Shown in pieces: positions 5,800-16,680 of a stretch of DNA of 37,124 bases. The notes beneath the pieces are model-generated. The model was not told the DNA's origin, did not search any database, and saw nothing but the letters and a program-made list of their open reading frames with translations. The translations under genes and the position numbers were made by a program. Position 1 is the first letter of the stretch. Each line of letters starts with the position of its first letter. The stretch comes from a virus: positions 277-37,400 of the IMG/VR virus record IMGVR_UViG_3300030390_000743. One strand, 5' to 3'.

Positions 5800-6234
5800 T
5801 TATATGATCCTTGCTGTCATTAAATAATCTTTGCCTTCAGGTCCGTACTTTTGCATCACACCTTCTGATGTCATGCCAAACCATTTAGCAAATCGTATTC
5901 CGTTTTTAAAATCCGTTCTTACCGCAGCTTGTATTCTATGGTATTCACGTTTTTGTATTGTTGTTTCAAATTTATCTTTAATATTCTTCAACATAAAAAA
6001 TTTATGTTGGTTAGTTTCTTGTTTCATAATGATCCAAACTTCGGCTACATGCTCCCATATAGGGGTTATGCCACCGCAAACAATCGGCTCATTATTATAA
6101 AATCCAGTCCAAGCATCTTCTGTTTCCAATGCATGAGTAGGGTAGCTACCACCGTAATCTTCGTATTCACCATATTTTAAAATTGCATCAGCATGAGCTG
6201 CTTGATATGGTTTTATAATATAACTAGCCATCAA
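5800..6234 (-). CDS. GNAT-like protein in the T7 gp13 position (144 aa)
   Basis: The protein reads like a small GNAT-fold (acetyltransferase-like) polypeptide: an ETEDAWTGFYNNEPIVCGGI strand region, then VAEVWIIMKQ, a helix, and a C-terminal NGIRFAKWFGMTSEGVMQKY segment typical of the acetyl-CoA-binding half. Phages of this type often carry such a protein (DUF2833 / internal virion protein A) between gp12-like and gp14-like genes, as here. Whether it still acetylates anything is unknown; in virions it may be an assembly factor. Its start overlaps the 3' end of the gp12-like gene by 11 nt. Two Met codons stand in tandem, and either could be used. Confidence 0.8.
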   Translation of the reverse strand: MMASYIIKPYQAAHADAILKYGEYEDYGGSYPTHALETEDAWTGFYNNEPIVCGGITPIWEHVAEVWIIMKQETNQHKFFMLKNIKDKFETTIQKREYHRIQAAVRTDFKNGIRFAKWFGMTSEGVMQKYGPEGKDYLMTARII

Positions 6235-9200
6235 ATGTATTGAGTCTTGGAAACAAGGCTGTCACCGTTAATGGTAATGGTTGTTTTTGTCTAACAAACA
6301 CAAAACCTTCTTTATTATAATCATCTCTAAATTCAGCATCCTTATCTCCAGTAAATAGTGGAGTGGCAGCTGATATAGCCATGGATGAATCTCTAAAGGG
6401 TATTATTTCCATGTTTTCTAAATCAGGACCAACTTCACAACCTAAAGTATTATCTAGTCTAACTGTGACTCCATGAATACGTTTAATTTTACCTTGAGCT
6501 GTACCATCTTGTGAGCCTGATTCAATCCGCATAGTTTGCAAGATTGATTCATAATTGTACCCAACTTGTACAGTTTCTGCAAAAGCATCTAAAGTTATTT
6601 TTCCAGCTGCTACTATTTCATCAGTATGAGCTGCACCATTAGATAATACATTAACAGTTTCACCTTCTAAATGATGTATTCCAGTTATAGTTTTAGTTTT
6701 ACCACCTGAATAAGTTAAGCCACTATCAACAAAGAAAGCATCTTCTTGATTGTTGCCATAATCAAATGGAGTTAGGTATTCAATATAATTTACCGTTGCT
6801 CTATTAACATAGCGTTGCACTACCATATACAATTCATCTTCAGCATTTTCAGTTGGTATGGTAGCAATACTTTTAACTTTAGCATGTGTGAGCCAAGTGT
6901 GAGTAGTAGCCGTAGTGCTAACTGTGCCAATGCTAACTCTAGTATTAGTAGAGTAAGGTGAACGTAAAGTATTATTTAATTGAAACTGGTTAGCATCAAT
7001 CGTACTCATAAAATAAGTTTGATTAGTATCAATACCAGTAAAAGCATTAGCACTTACTCCAGGGCTATAATAAATTTGCTGATCGTCACCAAAACCATGA
7101 GATGTAGAATAAAACGTATTCGTTCTAATATTAACCCCTTGATATAAATGATGTGTTGACGAAGTTGTCGGTATAAAATCTAAATCTACCGCAGTACCAG
7201 CTGTAGCATCGGCTGATGTTAAAGCTAACTTTACGATATTAGCATCAGTTCGAATAATAAAATAAAAAATGCCTTGGCTTAAACCACCAATGGGATTAGC
7301 TGCTGCAAAATAACTAACTACATCACCAGTAGATAAACCATGGCTATTAATAGTAATAGTGTCATTAGTTAAATTTACCGTTGCATCACCAGGCACGGTA
7401 AACGATAAACTTTTACTGACCGTACTTTTACCAGTATCACAATATCCACCAATAATATGTCGATGCCAAGCAATTACATTTTCAGTTCGTTGATATGTTA
7501 GACCAGCTAAAACACCATCAGTTCTAGCTACCCATAAGATAGATGCTGGTTCTTGTTGGTATGCAAACTCATGCACTAAACTTTCCGTTACATGATCGGC
7601 TAAGACGGTTAAGTCAGGGGCTATGTAGTTGTCACTATCATAGTTGTAAGTAAGTTCTCGTATTTTACGTTTAGCTCGATGCACAAATAAAACTAAATTA
7701 CCAACTGAAATAGCATCTTTATTAGCTGCACCATAAGCTGATTGTTTACGAATATTTATATTGGTTGGTGATAAACCATTCACGGAATCTGAACCTGTCA
7801 CTAAAAATTCTGCACCAACTGTACCAACTAGCAAAGATCGTGAGGCTGCTAAATATCGGATAGCATTAACTTTGTTACTAGCAATAGTAAAATTCATGGC
7901 ATCATCTGAGTCTGTGCCTTCAGTAAAGTTTTCATAATCACCAGATTGAGAAAACCATAATGTTTGGGGGTTGTTATTGGTATTAGCAAACACAAGACGT
8001 TGTTCAAAAAAAGTTACACATGATGGATAGTTGTCAGTGCTAGAATTTAATAAAGGATTGTTAAGTTTAGTGACCGTACCAGTAGAACCACTAAATGTAC
8101 CAAAACTTGATGTATTTAAATTTGTACCTGAACTATTTTGTAATTGAAAGTGTTGATCTGGACCAGTTAATGTGCCTGAAACAAACGTAGTGTAAGCAGA
8201 CGTATCAATGTTAATACCATTGCCGTTTTGCAAATTAAATGTAGTGGTTGATGGCACAGTACCAACTTTAAAAGCATTACCATTAAGTTGGGTCATACCC
8301 ACAACATCAGTAATATCAAAGCTATCACCAGCAATAAGTCCATGAGCTGCTGAAGTAGTGACTACACCAGGATCAGCTTTAGTTACACCTGAGATCGTAA
8401 TTTTGTTTTGCAATTCTCCAACTGTAAACGTATTAGTGTTTAATTCAGTCATGCCACCAATACCAGTAAATTTAATTTGATCCCCTTTGACTAAACCATT
8501 ATTTAAAGTTGTAGAAATAACTCCAGGATTAGCTTTGGTAGCTGCTGATACAATAAAATCAGTACCAGTTGTTAATGTGGGGGTTGCAAAAGTCCATGCA
8601 GTATGTCCAGTGCGTGATAGTTTACGAATAGCAACTGATGGATGCGTGATGTACATAACATCAGCCGATTGAGCAAATTTTAATTCAGATAGTATATTAT
8701 ACGCATAAGGTGAGGCAATTTCGTATATAGGAAAAACTACACCACCAGAACTATATGCAGTTAATGATCGTGTATCAAAATCTGTACCATCAGTTAATTT
8801 TAAATTAAAAGTTGTAGTAGAGCCAACTGTCCCAACTTTGAATTGTCGACCATTTAATTCAGTCATGCCCACAATGCCACTTAAAATAACATAATCACCA
8901 GCCGTCAAACCATGCGTAGCTGAAGTCACTACACCTGGAGCAGCCTGTGTTATACCTGAAATGTTTAAACCAGCTTTAGTTATGATACCATTATCTTTGT
9001 GAAATCGTACATATTGATCCCCAAACTCCATCATGTAAGTTTGAGTAGTAGAAAATTCAAAAGGTATCAGTCTGTGTGCTGTACCATCTATTCCACGTTT
9101 AGCTTCAGCAATAAATTTAGTACCTGGCCTTCTGGATGCCGCACCATGCGGATAGACAATCATATTTTCTAAAGTTTTACAGCCAACTTTATATTTGTCT

Positions 9201-9277
9201 AAATCAATTCGACCATCTAGTTGATCGGATAATTCTCCACCAGTAAAGCTAGTATAAGGATAGGCAGTTCTAACCAT
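6224..9277 (-). CDS. Tail tubular protein B (T7 gp12-like) with inserted FCCH-like repeats (1,017 aa)
   Basis: The N-terminus (FTGGELSDQLDGRIDLDKY, then NMIVYPHGAASRRPGTKFI) is the typical opening of gp12-type nozzle proteins. The core includes CVTFFEQRLVFANTNNNPQT, SNKVNAIRYL and the VLADHVTESLVHEFAYQQEP region. T7 gp12 is ~794 aa; the extra length here comes from repeated modules. Residues ~109-180, ~246-290 and ~295-370 share the pattern PGVV-HGL-GD-GMTELN-F-VG-TFNL, like FCCH domains found in many environmental phage tail proteins. A second repeat type (TITINSHGLSTGDVVSY) lies at ~640-800. It overlaps the gp11-like stop by one base (TAATG). It likely forms the tail nozzle that binds the fibres. 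Confidence 0.92.
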   Translation of the reverse strand: MVRTAYPYTSFTGGELSDQLDGRIDLDKYKVGCKTLENMIVYPHGAASRRPGTKFIAEAKRGIDGTAHRLIPFEFSTTQTYMMEFGDQYVRFHKDNGIITKAGLNISGITQAAPGVVTSATHGLTAGDYVILSGIVGMTELNGRQFKVGTVGSTTTFNLKLTDGTDFDTRSLTAYSSGGVVFPIYEIASPYAYNILSELKFAQSADVMYITHPSVAIRKLSRTGHTAWTFATPTLTTGTDFIVSAATKANPGVISTTLNNGLVKGDQIKFTGIGGMTELNTNTFTVGELQNKITISGVTKADPGVVTTSAAHGLIAGDSFDITDVVGMTQLNGNAFKVGTVPSTTTFNLQNGNGINIDTSAYTTFVSGTLTGPDQHFQLQNSSGTNLNTSSFGTFSGSTGTVTKLNNPLLNSSTDNYPSCVTFFEQRLVFANTNNNPQTLWFSQSGDYENFTEGTDSDDAMNFTIASNKVNAIRYLAASRSLLVGTVGAEFLVTGSDSVNGLSPTNINIRKQSAYGAANKDAISVGNLVLFVHRAKRKIRELTYNYDSDNYIAPDLTVLADHVTESLVHEFAYQQEPASILWVARTDGVLAGLTYQRTENVIAWHRHIIGGYCDTGKSTVSKSLSFTVPGDATVNLTNDTITINSHGLSTGDVVSYFAAANPIGGLSQGIFYFIIRTDANIVKLALTSADATAGTAVDLDFIPTTSSTHHLYQGVNIRTNTFYSTSHGFGDDQQIYYSPGVSANAFTGIDTNQTYFMSTIDANQFQLNNTLRSPYSTNTRVSIGTVSTTATTHTWLTHAKVKSIATIPTENAEDELYMVVQRYVNRATVNYIEYLTPFDYGNNQEDAFFVDSGLTYSGGKTKTITGIHHLEGETVNVLSNGAAHTDEIVAAGKITLDAFAETVQVGYNYESILQTMRIESGSQDGTAQGKIKRIHGVTVRLDNTLGCEVGPDLENMEIIPFRDSSMAISAATPLFTGDKDAEFRDDYNKEGFVFVRQKQPLPLTVTALFPRLNTFDG

Positions 9278-9843
9278 TAAAACCTCGATACAATAAATGG
9301 TGAATCAGCATCTATTTCATCTGGCATACCTTCGGTAGCATCAGCAAATCGTGCATCTTTCAGTTTGGATTTGTATCGTTCTTCCATAATCTGAATAATA
9401 GTGGTAGAACCAGTCACACCATACGCAATGTCTGCTGCCAATGCAGCTGTTAGGGTTTCATTTAAACTTGTATCGTACTGTGTGGTATCAGTAATTCTTG
9501 CCACATATAAAATTTTTACTGTCTCAGCATCAGTAAGTATTTTTCTGCCTTCAACTTTAAAATCTACGTCATCTTGCATTTGAAAAGTTTTTAATACTCG
9601 AATACAATCTGCTGGTAAGGTGTATTGATATGAATATTCATATTCAGGGGTAGCAGTGTCTGCTGGTAGGGTTGCTCGTTTTAATAAACAATTCCACGGA
9701 TGCTCACGAAATACACGATCTCGAACCATCTCATATCTTTGATTTAACATTCTTGCGTTCTTGCTGTCATCAGACAGACTTACAATAGTGGATGCTCCAA
9801 TTTGATTTAAAGCTCCATTACAAATATCTACTTGTGAGGTCAT
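9277..9843 (-). CDS. Tail tubular protein A (T7 gp11-like, 188 aa)
   Basis: The sequence opens with VDICNGALNQIGASTIVSLS and continues with RVFREHPWNCLLKRATLP and YQYTLPADCIRVLK, the standard pattern of gp11-type adaptor proteins that sit between portal and nozzle. Its 188 residues are close to the T7 length (196). The C-terminus holds the helix with DIAYGVTGSTTIIQIMEERY. It lies directly before the gp12-like gene, and the stop and start share one base. Role: the ring that attaches the gp12-like tube to the portal. Confidence 0.92.
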   Translation of the reverse strand: MTSQVDICNGALNQIGASTIVSLSDDSKNARMLNQRYEMVRDRVFREHPWNCLLKRATLPADTATPEYEYSYQYTLPADCIRVLKTFQMQDDVDFKVEGRKILTDAETVKILYVARITDTTQYDTSLNETLTAALAADIAYGVTGSTTIIQIMEERYKSKLKDARFADATEGMPDEIDADSPFIVSRF

Positions 9844-12632: not shown

Positions 12633-14225
12633 TTATTCAACTGCTTTAATCATTGGTGCAGCAGCTCCAGCTGCTTGAGCTGCTTCAGCCATAGCTTGAT
12701 CTTCCATAGCTGCCTGTTCTTGTTCTTGTCGTTGTTGTCTTACTTGAGCTACTTCTTGATCTGATTTTATAATAGCAGCTGGTAAGCCTAACATTTTTTG
12801 AACATACTTAACTAAGCCATCGGCATCTAAGTAATCCAAAACTGGTGCAAATTGTGACATTGATCCAAAAATTTCTATGCCCCGCATAACTGAATTTAAG
12901 TCACCTGATTTTTGAGCTTTAGCCAATGGGCTTACATACTCAATATCAATAGTCTGTTCCATTAATATTTCTGGAGCTGGTTGAAATACGTTAGCTCTCA
13001 TTAAAATATTAAATACTCGTTCAATTAATGGTTGTAATAATTCTGATTGCAGTCGACCTAACACTGGACCAAGCAATCTCATTTTTTCTTCATTACGTTG
13101 CAACACTTCAGTAGCAGTCATGTTGCCACCTTGAGCTAATAATAATTGATCGACATAAAAAGTTTTTTGTACTGCTAGTTGTCGGTCTTGGATCATGTTT
13201 ACAGTTATTGGATTGTTAGCTCCAATATTTAATGGTTCAATTCGATCACGACTACCAGAACGATAAAAGTTTAAACCACCAGGTACTGTTCGAACTGGCA
13301 ACATAAAACCATCATCAGGCACCATCAATGGTGGATCAATTTGTTTTTGTGCAGCTTTAATTGTTACCTCTGACATTTTGTTTAACATCTTAACATCAGG
13401 CAGTGCGTTCATAGCTGGTGAACGACCATAAATTTCATAACTAGCTTTTAAATATCTTGGTACAACGTATGGAAACTCACGGAAACCTGATTCATTAATC
13501 ATGTGAACATCATCAGGATCTAAATAACATGATTTAAATGGCATGTTTTGTGCATCTTCTTTAGATGCATCATAAGTATCTCTTGGTGTTACAACATGTA
13601 ATAAACTAACTTCAGCATCTAAATCTTTTTTAAATTTGTTAAAAATACCTGGACCAACATTGGCTTCACCAAATAGATTAACCGCAGCTCTAGCACTTAA
13701 AGTAAAATGTCTAAAGACTGTATCAACTTGACCTTTTTCATTTTCAGCAATAAATATTTCCTTAACATGCCGAGTATTAAATTTAATTAAATTTTTATCA
13801 TCGGCTGATACAAACATAGCTGAAGTACCAAATGAAATTAAATCTTGATATAACTCTTGAATTTCTTGTTGGAAGTTAGAACGATTAAAAGCTACATACA
13901 TATCTTGGGTGACTGAATCTAACCATCCTCTAGCTTCATCATCTTCTGATAAAGCTGCATCTTTATAAGCTAGAGTAAACCATGGGGTAGCAGAATTAGT
14001 TAGCATACCGTGCAAACTAGAACTCAATAATTCTAATGCATGAATAGCAGTGCCATCAAATATTTGCTCCATTCTCTTATCACCACGAGTTCGTTGGGTG
14101 GTAATGTCAGCTTTACGAGGTAGCATAAAATCAGCTATTTCTTGCCAATGGCTTTCCCAAGTAGAACGATTAGTACGCAATGTGGCAAAACGATTTACCA
14201 GCATCTCTGCATTTTTATTTTTCAT
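12633..14225 (-). CDS. Portal (head-to-tail connector) protein (530 aa)
   Basis: The N-terminus (RFATLRTNRSTWESHWQEIADFMLPRK) and segments GTAIHALELLSSSLHGMLTN, SNFQQEIQELYQDLISFGTS and LNKMSEVTIKAAQKQIDPPL are diagnostic of the T7 gp8-type connector family. The length matches T7 gp8 (536 aa). The TEVLQRNEEKMRLLGPVLGR helix is the usual channel region. The C-terminus is Ala/Gln-rich (RQQRQEQEQAAMEDQAMAEA), the barrel extension. Twelve copies are expected to form the DNA entry vertex, working with the terminase above and the gp11-like ring below. Confidence 0.95.
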   Translation of the reverse strand: MKNKNAEMLVNRFATLRTNRSTWESHWQEIADFMLPRKADITTQRTRGDKRMEQIFDGTAIHALELLSSSLHGMLTNSATPWFTLAYKDAALSEDDEARGWLDSVTQDMYVAFNRSNFQQEIQELYQDLISFGTSAMFVSADDKNLIKFNTRHVKEIFIAENEKGQVDTVFRHFTLSARAAVNLFGEANVGPGIFNKFKKDLDAEVSLLHVVTPRDTYDASKEDAQNMPFKSCYLDPDDVHMINESGFREFPYVVPRYLKASYEIYGRSPAMNALPDVKMLNKMSEVTIKAAQKQIDPPLMVPDDGFMLPVRTVPGGLNFYRSGSRDRIEPLNIGANNPITVNMIQDRQLAVQKTFYVDQLLLAQGGNMTATEVLQRNEEKMRLLGPVLGRLQSELLQPLIERVFNILMRANVFQPAPEILMEQTIDIEYVSPLAKAQKSGDLNSVMRGIEIFGSMSQFAPVLDYLDADGLVKYVQKMLGLPAAIIKSDQEVAQVRQQRQEQEQAAMEDQAMAEAAQAAGAAAPMIKAVE

Positions 14226-14429
14226 TTAGCTTAATAATGTTGATTGGTAAGTAGGGGCATCTCCACCTAATCCAGCTGAAGTAGTTTCAATCAATGAAGA
14301 TTGTCCTGGCTTTTTCTTTTTCTTTTTAGCTTGTACGTCTTGAGCTATGTCTTGCGTAGTTGTAGTTTGTAAGCCTTTCATAGCTGTCATAGCTACTGGA
14401 GCTGGTTTTTTTCCTATTATTGCACTCAT
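14226..14429 (-). CDS. Small basic protein with LLS C-terminus (67 aa)
   Basis: The frame extends further upstream, but the best start is ATG at 14429, preceded by AAGGAAAT; the longer version would overlap the upstream gene. Features are an MSAIIGKKPAPVAM start, a KKKKKK run near residue 36, and the ending GGDAPTYQSTLLS. That tail resembles the ends of three other small proteins in this cluster. It lies directly against the portal start. No known function; synteny suggests a virion or head-assembly accessory. Confidence 0.72.
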   Translation of the reverse strand: MSAIIGKKPAPVAMTAMKGLQTTTTQDIAQDVQAKKKKKKPGQSSLIETTSAGLGGDAPTYQSTLLS

Positions 14430-14442
14430 AGTATTTCCTTGT

Positions 14443-14697
14443 TTAAGTTTTTTTATTATTGTTAGCAAAAGTTCTAGCAGCAGCCACACTTCCAAAACCC
14501 CATTTTTTTAAAGCTAGGGCTTTCCGTGTTGGGCTACCGTCTGGTTTTTTCATCGGTCCTTGCATGCCAGCAAAACGTGCAGCAAAAGATACTCGTCTAG
14601 GATTCGTGCCTGTGCTGACTGGAGCTTTAACTCCAAAATGTTTTCGACCAGCATCATTAAGACCGCCTGATGGGCTTTGGTGTTTCTTTAACGCCAT
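14443..14697 (-). CDS. DUF6321-like small basic protein (84 aa)
   Basis: The sequence SPSGGLNDAGRKHF, then TGTNPRRVSFAARFAGMQGP and RKALALKKWGFGSVAAARTF, is a highly conserved pattern in small phage proteins (DUF6321 as I recall it). The protein is strongly basic. These proteins are common near terminase and portal genes of marine phages, but their role is not known to me. Its start overlaps the stop of the 51-residue gene before it by a few bases. Confidence 0.82.
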   Translation of the reverse strand: MALKKHQSPSGGLNDAGRKHFGVKAPVSTGTNPRRVSFAARFAGMQGPMKKPDGSPTRKALALKKWGFGSVAAARTFANNNKKT

Positions 14698-14698
14698 G

Positions 14699-14854
14699 TT
14701 AGGTGCCTATTTTTTTTTGTGCTGCCTTATGTGCTGTTGTAAAGGTATTGCCTTCAAGCATTGATTTCTCCATCAACGACATGTGTTTTTTTGTGTGATG
14801 TACAGAATGTTTTTTTAAAGTTTTAACTTGTCGTTTGGTTAACTCTTTAGCCAT
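14699..14854 (-). CDS. HTKKHM-type small basic protein (51 aa)
   Basis: ATG at 14854, stop at 14699. The protein reads KELTKRQVKTLKKHSVHHT followed by KKHMSLMEKSMLEGNTFTTA and AHKAAQKKIGT. The pattern KKHS-HHT-KHM-M-G-FT-AH recurs in small phage proteins next to structural genes. It is His/Lys-rich, helical, with no membrane segment. The function is unknown. Its stop and the next ATG are separated by 1 nt, so translation is probably chained. Confidence 0.75.
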   Translation of the reverse strand: MAKELTKRQVKTLKKHSVHHTKKHMSLMEKSMLEGNTFTTAHKAAQKKIGT

Positions 14855-14856
14855 GT

Positions 14857-14895
14857 TTATTTACCGTAAGGTTTTTTCTTTTTCTTTTTAATCAT
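14857..14895 (-). CDS. Possible 12-residue basic peptide
   Basis: ATG at 14895 has AAAGAAAGGAAAT upstream, a good ribosome site, and reads MIKKKKKKPYGK before the stop at 14857, 2 nt before the next gene's start. The spacing pattern matches the neighbouring mini genes, so it may be a translated leader or linker peptide. It could also be only the fortuitous part of an intergenic region. Confidence 0.35.
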   Translation of the reverse strand: MIKKKKKKPYGK

Positions 14896-14909
14896 TTTAT
14901 TTCCTTTCT

Positions 14910-15035
14910 TTAACCTAATAATGTTTTTGGTTTTACTTTTGGTTTGTTTCTTAATAGTGCAAAGTCTCTAGCATCTATTCTTTTGTTTTTATTTACATCA
15001 AGTTTTTTTTGTTTGCCTTTTAATGGTTCAGTCAT
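14910..15035 (-). CDS. EF-hand-like mini protein with LLG C-terminus (41 aa)
   Basis: ATG at 15035, stop at 14910. The core GKQKKLDVNKNKRIDARDFA fits one EF-hand loop: D-V-N-K-N-K-R-I-D-A-R-D, with acidic or Asn residues at loop positions 1, 3, 5, 9 and 12, and Ile at position 8. Position 7 onward is normal, but the hinge Gly at position 6 is Lys, so calcium affinity is uncertain. The protein ends in KPKTLLG. Short single EF-hand proteins occur in several marine phage genomes near head genes. Possible role: divalent-cation-dependent virion stability or a structural dimer. Confidence 0.68.
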   Translation of the reverse strand: MTEPLKGKQKKLDVNKNKRIDARDFALLRNKPKVKPKTLLG

Positions 15036-15039
15036 GTTG

Positions 15040-15198
15040 TTATCCTAATAATGTTTTCTTGGCTGTCTTAGCCGATTGAGTAAAGTTTTTAGCAGTTGGT
15101 GATCCTGGTGAGCCTACTTTACGCATTTTCTCACCTGATCCAGCTGCAATACGTTTACGTTTTGCATGGATGTTTGCATATAGTCCTGGTTTTGCCAT
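15040..15198 (-). CDS. Small basic protein, RKVGSPGSPTAK type, LLG C-terminus (52 aa)
   Basis: ATG at 15198, stop at 15040. The segments LYANIHAKRKRIAAGSGEKM and RKVGSPGSPTAKNFTQSAKT are a familiar pattern of small basic phage proteins encoded between terminase and portal. The end is AKKTLLG, almost the same as that of the next gene. No enzyme motif. Strong positive charge suggests binding of DNA or an acidic protein surface. Confidence 0.78.
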   Translation of the reverse strand: MAKPGLYANIHAKRKRIAAGSGEKMRKVGSPGSPTAKNFTQSAKTAKKTLLG

Positions 15199-15202
15199 AG
15201 TG

Positions 15203-15403
15203 TTATCCTAACAGTGAGGGGTTATAAGTTGCTTCTGGGTCATTAATTAAACCACTGTTGGAAGTAAGTATGGTAGCCTTCTTACCTTTTTTCGGTGCTT
15301 CAAGTTCTTCAACATCACCAGCAACACTACCTATAGGAGTCATAGCTACTTTTTGTTTAGGGGGAGTTGGCATGTTAATTTTGGGTTTTAATAATCTACT
15401 CAT
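15203..15403 (-). CDS. Small phage protein, MSRLLKPKINMP type, LLG C-terminus (66 aa)
   Basis: The N-terminus SRLLKPKINMPTPPKQKVAM and the later TILTSNSGLINDPEATYNPS-LLG match a recurrent small protein found upstream of podovirus-like portals. Between them is a charged Pro/Gly-rich linker, so it is probably disordered apart from the conserved ends. The start overlaps the large terminase stop by 4 nt (ATGA). I know of no assigned function; the conserved C-terminal tag suggests docking on a common partner such as portal, capsid or scaffold. Confidence 0.8.
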   Translation of the reverse strand: MSRLLKPKINMPTPPKQKVAMTPIGSVAGDVEELEAPKKGKKATILTSNSGLINDPEATYNPSLLG

Positions 15404-16680
15404 TGTAATCCTAGTGGGTTGTAGTTGTTATCGGCCATTGCTTGTGGCACTGTTTGTTCTGTTTTTAATTCTTGTAAACCTACAGCTAAACATCTCATAC
15501 TATCACTAGCATGACTGCTCCAATCGTGAACGGGTTTAGCATTAAAAGTTTGCAACATATCGTTAAATTTACGATGGTAATTTCTTAGTGCGTCTAATAA
15601 TTTTTTACAATTATCCATGTCAATCCAGCATCGGTTTAGCAATAGTTGCGTATAGTGCAGCCCATCTTCTATGCTTAGTTTAGGTACAATCTTAAATCGT
15701 AAACCTAATTCGTAAGCTATTTCTCGTCTGGATTTACCATTAGTAAACTCACGTTGTTCTAAATCGTGAGGCCCATAATGATTGTTGTAAACATAATCTT
15801 TGTTTTTAATTATCTTAATATAGTGTGGCAGCCCTTCGTTGCTGTTTTCATAATAATCTATAATTTGTATTGATCTGCCTACTTGCTGAAAAAATATAAT
15901 CGTTGTTTTATCTGACACACCTATATCCCAAGCCGTAGACACGGGATAAGTTGGATCGTAAGGAACATTACCAATTTGACCTTTATCTTCTATTTTCTCA
16001 ATAACATCTCCATAAATGGAGCCTTCTAATGCAGCTACCCAATCACACAAAAATTCTTGCCGAAATTTTTTCTTGCCCATGAGTTCTAGGGCAGCATCTA
16101 ATTCTTCTTGGTCCACAATGCCAGTTTCATCTGCTTTAGCAATCTTAGTGTACCAGGTCTTATCTTTTAGACCGTGTTGATATTTGGCATAAAAATCATT
16201 ACTCATGCCTTGTGGAGTACCAACAAAAAAACAAAAACCTTTACGATCTGATAGAGCTGGCCTGATTACTTCAGGAAACAGCCGTGGGTTTATCTGTGCA
16301 TATTCATCACAAATAATCCCATCAAAATAAGAACCCCTTAAACTGTCAGGGTTCTCTGATCCGAGTAGTACAATTTTTGCACCATTCGGAAACAAACAAC
16401 TTAGTTCTTGTTCGTTGAACTTGGTTCCAGGTATGACACCAGCATAGTATTTTAAATAGTCAAAAATAATTGACTTTGTTTGTTTATATGTCGGGCCGAT
16501 GTATGCGTACCGAGGGTTCCACTTGTTGTTTGTTAAAGCTCGTTTTATTAATTCATTAATACATAATACCGATTTACCAGCCCGTCTGTGTATTGATAGT
16601 ACAGCCCATCGGTATTTATTTAAATTTTCATGTATCTCTTTTTGTAATTCTCTTGGACTATAAGGTATCGTTATTTCCAT
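15400..16680 (-). CDS. terL: Terminase large subunit (426 aa)
   Basis: The ATPase domain has Walker A SIHRRAGKS at ~29-37, Walker B IICDE at ~122-126 with the catalytic Glu, and the coupling motif GTPQG at ~154. The nuclease domain begins near residue 245 with WDIGVSD (Asp ~252), and its late acidic residue lies in HASDS (~390-394). Length is a little short of the usual 450-600 but both domains appear complete. It packages DNA through the portal. It follows the 60-residue gene with a one-base overlap and is followed by a four-base overlap. Confidence 0.96.
   Translation of the reverse strand: MEITIPYSPRELQKEIHENLNKYRWAVLSIHRRAGKSVLCINELIKRALTNNKWNPRYAYIGPTYKQTKSIIFDYLKYYAGVIPGTKFNEQELSCLFPNGAKIVLLGSENPDSLRGSYFDGIICDEYAQINPRLFPEVIRPALSDRKGFCFFVGTPQGMSNDFYAKYQHGLKDKTWYTKIAKADETGIVDQEELDAALELMGKKKFRQEFLCDWVAALEGSIYGDVIEKIEDKGQIGNVPYDPTYPVSTAWDIGVSDKTTIIFFQQVGRSIQIIDYYENSNEGLPHYIKIIKNKDYVYNNHYGPHDLEQREFTNGKSRREIAYELGLRFKIVPKLSIEDGLHYTQLLLNRCWIDMDNCKKLLDALRNYHRKFNDMLQTFNAKPVHDWSSHASDSMRCLAVGLQELKTEQTVPQAMADNNYNPLGLQ

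Follow-up and report, generated by a model that had tools for sequence, protein, structure and literature searches.

A shared C-terminal tag on small proteins encoded between terminase and portal in a relative of SAR11 phages, and its possible role in virion assembly

Why should several small phage proteins with different bodies end in the same few residues, and what might such an end do for them? The question is raised by a stretch of viral DNA (hereafter the window), 37,124 bases long and taken from an IMG/VR virus record of 37,400 bases. The window shares 66-68% DNA identity with the Pelagibacter phages Greip, HTVC024P and HTVC010P, and its virus, which comes from the ocean, is related to the phages of SAR11 (Pelagibacter).

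The gene cluster between terminase and portal

On the minus strand, which carries all the genes of this cluster, the gene for the large terminase subunit (Terminase_6N; 15400..16680) is followed by six small genes and then by those for the portal, a Bbp19-like protein and a scaffold-like protein. The portal (Head-tail_con, phrog_332; 12633..14225), a candidate docking partner, matches Pfam PF12236 with an E-value of 1e-150, and the genes after the scaffold-like one were assigned by position and length to the major capsid protein (MCP), adaptor and nozzle.

Four of the six small genes carry the tag. Nearest the terminase gene is a 66-aa protein of the phrog_831 family (15203..15403) with a Pro-rich N-terminus (KPKI) and the C-terminal module KKGKKATILTSNSGL...YNPSLLG, whose tag codons S-L-L-G read from the sequence at 15206..15217, ahead of a stop at 15203-15205. 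It is followed by a basic 52-aa protein (15040..15198) of the GLYANIHAKRKRIAAGSGEKMRK family, also called phrog_16028 or GLYANIH, to which KTLLG has been appended (end KKTLLG; T-L-L-G codons read at 15043..15054), and by a 41-aa protein (14910..15035) with a single dockerin/EF-hand-like loop (DVNKNKRIDARDF) and the end PKTLLG (T-L-L-G codons read at 14913..14924). Two untagged genes come next, one for a basic 51-aa protein (14699..14854; phrog_31838, PHROG E 7e-8; end QKKIGT) and one for an 84-aa DUF6321 protein (14443..14697; Pfam E 2e-15; end NNNKKT). Directly before the portal gene lies a second phrog_831 copy, a 67-aa protein (14226..14429) that ends in YQSTLLS (T-L-L-S codons read at 14229..14240) and whose ATG is preceded by a good AGGA.

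Exactly four genes in the window end in [TS]LL[GS], and all of them lie between the large terminase and portal genes. The first-pass annotation had described four neighbouring small genes with a shared end on differing bodies, and all four genes and their C-termini were confirmed. They form a single cluster rather than a run of strict neighbours, since the 51-aa and 84-aa genes intervene between the third and the fourth. The bodies represent three families rather than four: the 52-aa and 41-aa proteins belong to families of their own, and the 66-aa and 67-aa proteins both match phrog_831. The same annotation had also seen a loosely similar tag in the YNPLGLQ terminus of the terminase, but this candidate was rejected because the end (NPLGLQ in the window) is not conserved in relatives, where it reads NPLGIQ, NHEQNF, NYEQII, PLEIRN or YDPFAA.

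As a separate observation, untagged genes for GNAT-like acetyltransferases recur beside portal or tail genes, for example at 5800-6234 in the window (recognized by eye) and in the terminase-portal interval of relatives L036-L067. One of the interval GNAT-like proteins matches Pfam PF00583.

Distribution of the tag in related phages

The shared end is real and occurs far above chance. When every ORF of 30 aa or more on either strand of the window was scanned for the ending L[LM][GS].?, which allows at most one extra residue, only the four tagged genes and one antisense ORF matched. For a wider census, about eighty related contigs were found via the portal and the 66-aa protein and tiled into genes by a simple script; the intervals surveyed come mostly from one marine lineage, together with about a dozen diverse phages. 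With distinct C-terminal 12-mers as the unit and [TS]L[LMI][GS] as the pattern, 72 of the 147 distinct C-termini from the terminase-portal interval are tagged, compared with 1 of 452 from the rest of these contigs, so the recurrence in relatives that the first-pass annotation had proposed as a check is there. The corresponding Fisher p value of 4e-50 is not corrected for relatedness and is overstated because the sequences are related, and the family-level result given below does not depend on it. Only about 1.1% (29/2677) of other ORFs on the related contigs match the pattern, and within the interval proteins it occurs internally just 6 times in 21,002 positions. A single locus can hold up to six tagged genes, and in most loci one of them adjoins the portal gene.

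By protein family, the interval census is nearly all-or-none, with at least eight tagged body families. The tag ends 91 of 98 phrog_831-like proteins, all GLYANIH (16/16), EF-hand-like (13/13) and helix-repeat (6/6) proteins and 5 of 6 SLYENINK proteins, with smaller families besides, and several of the tagged bodies are rich in Lys and Arg. Four interval families are never tagged: DUF6321 (0/22), GNAT-like (0/22), the 51-aa family (0/10) and a family of 144-167 aa (0/8). What is common to several otherwise unrelated phage proteins is therefore a short terminal sequence, and it is always C-terminal.

One of the tagged families is phrog_831, which is catalogued with unknown function. The 66-aa protein matches it over its full length (E 1e-4), the 67-aa protein matches with an E-value of 0.0014 and gp03 of HTVC010P with 2e-21, and these matches are nearly full-length and include the C-terminal KTLLG module. 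This module, with variants, reads G-[RKQ]-x-[SA]-T-[IL]-L-T-[GS]-x(2)-G-x(n)-[KR]-[TS]-L-L-G; in its simpler form, as used to compare the two window proteins with the family, it is G-R-x-S-T-I-L-T-x(2)-G-x(n)-K-T-L-L-G. The 41-aa and 52-aa proteins gave no match to the phrog_831 profile. As catalogued, phrog_831 is one protein, whereas here its last four residues are also found on unrelated families. Members or close relatives occur in BPP-1 (bbp22, STLLGQ), the epsilon15-like phages Tyrion and BUCT711, Ab31, HTVC010P, Greip, Caulobacter phage RapA (PALLGA), Limnohabitans phage DC33 and Vibrio phage 1.021.B, and the 66-aa protein could be aligned with homologues from HTVC010P, epsilon15-like phages, BPP-1 and others. 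The phrog_831-type gene sits directly upstream of a PF12236/phrog_332 portal gene or one gene removed from it, the direct position being scored for the window and for BPP-1, Tyrion, BUCT711, Ab31, DC33, RapA, HTVC010P and Greip, and the place of the 67-aa gene before the portal gene is conserved in relatives. Much of the pelagiphage-like group (L007-L089) has two phrog_831-type copies, one immediately behind the terminase gene and one immediately ahead of the portal gene; the small genes that separate them form a variable cassette.

Two further observations concern these relatives. Phage DC33 (L171, PQ492659.1) is filed under Inoviridae, but its 39-kb genome encodes a Head-tail_con portal, and it is thus most likely a tailed phage whose taxonomy line looks wrong. 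The portals of phages Ab31 and YA3 (L173, L197) end in a tag-like GQLLGA; those of other relatives do not.

The 52-aa protein is a body to which the tag has been appended. It is a member of phrog_16028 (E 1e-27), a widespread marine-phage family distinct from phrog_831, but the match covers only residues 1-48. Aligned homologues are 76-94% identical, yet 76 of the 77 in other phages are untagged and stop exactly before the tag, the one exception ending in SLLS; the tag is added after SAKTAKK only in the phage type of the window. The stretches of those other phages that carry phrog_16028 include only one with even a weak match to the window portal, and 1 of their 2635 ORFs is tagged, this being a single GLYANIH copy. 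The protein in question (L146:3995-4144) ends in KTAKSLLS and belongs to another phage type with no further tagged gene, and its tag was either a chance occurrence or borrowed.

Instructive exceptions exist in the other direction. None of the DUF6321 homologues counted is tagged (0/22 and 0/77, two partly overlapping sets scored with a pattern that leaves out MIG); in contig L284 (which holds L279), however, direct inspection shows that a DUF6321 protein and its SLYENINK neighbour both end in KTMIG. These two genes (8904-9053 and 9057-9350 on the reverse complement of the contig) lie between the capsid and adaptor genes, the phrog_831 protein of the same contig ends in KKTLLGG, and the pair seems to have gained a variant tag independently. 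L223 has yet another unrelated body, of 83 aa, which ends in KKTLLGG beside two phrog_831 proteins. Judged from these comparisons of the 52-aa, DUF6321 and 83-aa proteins, the tag is modular and follows phage type rather than protein body.

The 41-aa protein is tagged in 13 of 13 homologues from relatives. It matches Pfam Dockerin_1 with an E-value of 8e-5, just above the cut-off, and a phage-database search with it returned chance-level matches only. A lone dockerin/EF-hand-like calcium loop is odd for such a small phage protein.

Selection on the peptide and its possible function

Could the shared end be a by-product of the DNA, such as the ribosome-binding site of the next gene (TTAGGA) or a recombination scar left by insertion or duplication, with a peptide that does nothing? 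The genes are closely packed, three of the four window tags have ACATTATTA in common, and for the 52-aa and 66-aa genes TTA-GGA stands a few bases ahead of the next start, so that a ribosome-binding site could have yielded Leu-Gly. However, the tag is spelled in 45 ways among its 12-base spellings, with nearly all synonyms used for Thr, Leu and Gly, and with TCA, AGC and AGT for the Ser variants, which indicates that it is selected as protein and not as a ribosome-binding site. GGA is used for the Gly about as often ahead of a nearby start (52/115) as ahead of a distant one (8/20), and L284 has its KTMIG tag between the MCP and adaptor genes. A ribosome-binding-site origin of the shared codons was rejected because the spellings are so numerous and because the choice of Gly codon does not clearly depend on how far away the next start lies, and the by-product explanation as a whole is largely refuted. 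Inside each family the tag varies strongly at synonymous positions and little in its amino acids, a result that is partly circular because the proteins were chosen by pattern, except that all members of the GLYANIH (16/16) and EF-hand (13/13) families in the interval are tagged.

If the peptide itself matters, where do its carriers go? Gp3 of phage YA3 is an 84-aa protein encoded between terminase and portal whose end, checked in the sequence, is ATKTLLGG. Mass spectrometry of purified YA3 particles identified 13 proteins, one of which was gp3, with a low content (PMC7326022). Virions thus contain at least one tagged homologue, as the first-pass annotation had anticipated for proteins of this kind. 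YA3 gp3 is phrog_831-related and is not one of the transferred bodies. For pelagiphage proteins our literature search found no proteomics; in the stretch of the HTVC010P record examined, no protein but that of the capsid is labelled structural, and the available part of the BPP-1 paper identifies only two main head proteins.

Because one tagged relative is present in finished particles, the tag probably serves as an address label, sending small proteins into the particle close to the DNA gate. More specifically, we propose with a probability of roughly 0.55 that the [TS]LL[GS] end is a C-terminal motif, probably acting at the portal vertex, by which minor internal virion proteins are docked or packaged. 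Such a modular short linear motif would let small, mostly disordered or basic proteins dock on a single assembly partner and thereby enter the virion in low copy during head assembly. The most likely docking site would be the portal barrel or core region, a preference that derives from gene position and from the low content of YA3 gp3, which suggests the stoichiometry of a vertex rather than of a shell. The ancestral carrier was probably phrog_831, encoded just upstream of the portal in short-tailed phages of the epsilon15, BPP-1, Ab31 and HTVC010P types, and the pelagiphage-like group, with its two copies, has the tag also on exchangeable small proteins such as GLYANIH, the EF-hand-like protein and others. 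The proposal thus predicts that the tag causes incorporation and that the transferred bodies are likewise virion cargo.

The AF2 model of the 66-aa protein has no secondary structure (mean pLDDT 65), and that of the 52-aa protein has two helices (mean pLDDT 75) and a low-confidence end; in both, the tag lacks a confident structure. Structureless predictions are usual for motif-bearing tails. Neither the phrog_831 profile nor the 66-aa protein found a credible match among solved structures.

The first-pass annotation had suggested docking on one shared partner, such as the portal, capsid or scaffold. The common tag, its conservation and its modularity on proteins of different ancestry stand, and a partner of this kind is reasonably suggested by them. 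The presence of a portal does not by itself predict the tag, since VP2, ZP6 and L085-L088 have related portals and no tagged gene; in these phages the binding site of the partner may have been lost or never gained.

Several other destinations or uses can be weighed against the portal vertex. Docking in many copies on the scaffold or on the inner face of the capsid shell, in the manner of the T4 capsid targeting sequence or of encapsulin cargo peptides, is possible but doubtful. Scaffold, MCP and portal genes are mutually adjacent in the window, the Lys/Arg-rich character of several tagged bodies is expected of internal proteins that contact DNA, and the diverse internal proteins of T4, which are taken into the scaffold core, have only a capsid targeting sequence in common (PMC3012670). 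Nevertheless, the sole tagged protein detected in virions is there at low content (PMC7326022), and the same Bbp19-like and scaffold-position genes also occur in phages without the tag, VP2 being an example.

The remaining two uses are much less probable than docking on scaffold or shell. Small hydrophobic C-termini can, as is generally known, be read by bacterial proteases, so the tag might be a turnover signal that limits protein level or clears proteins after ejection into the host, and T7 gp6.7 and gp7.3 are indeed degraded by host proteases (PMC11784390). We find this improbable given that a tagged protein persists in mature virions (PMC7326022), and that the tag is confined to a single phage architecture whose hosts range from SAR11 to Pseudomonas and enterobacteria, a pattern more in keeping with a partner encoded by the phage than with a protease of the host. 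About as improbable is that the tagged proteins stay out of the virion and act while DNA is packaged, by binding terminase or some late regulatory factor. Their genes do lie directly behind the terminase gene, but the interval is equally directly before the portal gene, which a tagged gene adjoins in most loci, and YA3 gp3 was detected in purified virions (PMC7326022).

Known systems and biological meaning

Portal-vertex docking has an instructive analogue in T7, where twelve copies of gp6.7 surround the portal barrel and bridge to the core (PMC11784390). The genes for T7 gp6.7 and gp7.3 are also encoded shortly before the portal gene, matching the position of the tagged genes; both are small virion proteins, and some phrog_831 members have an N-terminus resembling their M-C-x-S-x-P-K. 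Unlike the tagged proteins, however, gp6.7 and gp7.3 have no TLLG end. Alignment of phrog_831 with T7 gp6.7 (PF17570) by hhalign gave a probability of 5% over 7 aligned columns, and an epsilon15-like phrog_831 member had no Pfam match. Homology between the two was rejected as undetectable, so the comparison with T7 is one of analogy only.

Short targeting peptides are familiar from other assemblies. The capsid targeting sequence of T4 is N-terminal and is removed by the prohead protease, whereas the tag described here is C-terminal, comprises four residues, belongs to short-tailed phages and would act through a putative partner. Encapsulin cargo-loading peptides, short C-terminal peptides that bring different cargoes into an HK97-fold shell, offer a possible further parallel, although encapsulins are not viruses. 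Our search of the literature on KTLLG in phages brought up no relevant paper and no earlier account of the tag, although phrog_831 itself was already catalogued.

A broader reading, which we hold only tentatively, is that the tag is a C-terminal capsid-loading code with which short-tailed phages of the ocean load exchangeable accessory proteins, such that any tagged protein would become cargo delivered with the DNA. Pelagiphages and related phages rank with the most abundant viruses on Earth, yet nearly all of their small late genes are of unknown function. The shared modular tag makes such orphan genes one testable class of candidate internal virion proteins, new members of which can be found from their last four residues alone. 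If cargo loading is indeed what the tag does, short-tailed phages would have in it a C-terminal counterpart of the T4 capsid targeting sequence, and it would indicate a route for addressing proteins into podophage heads.
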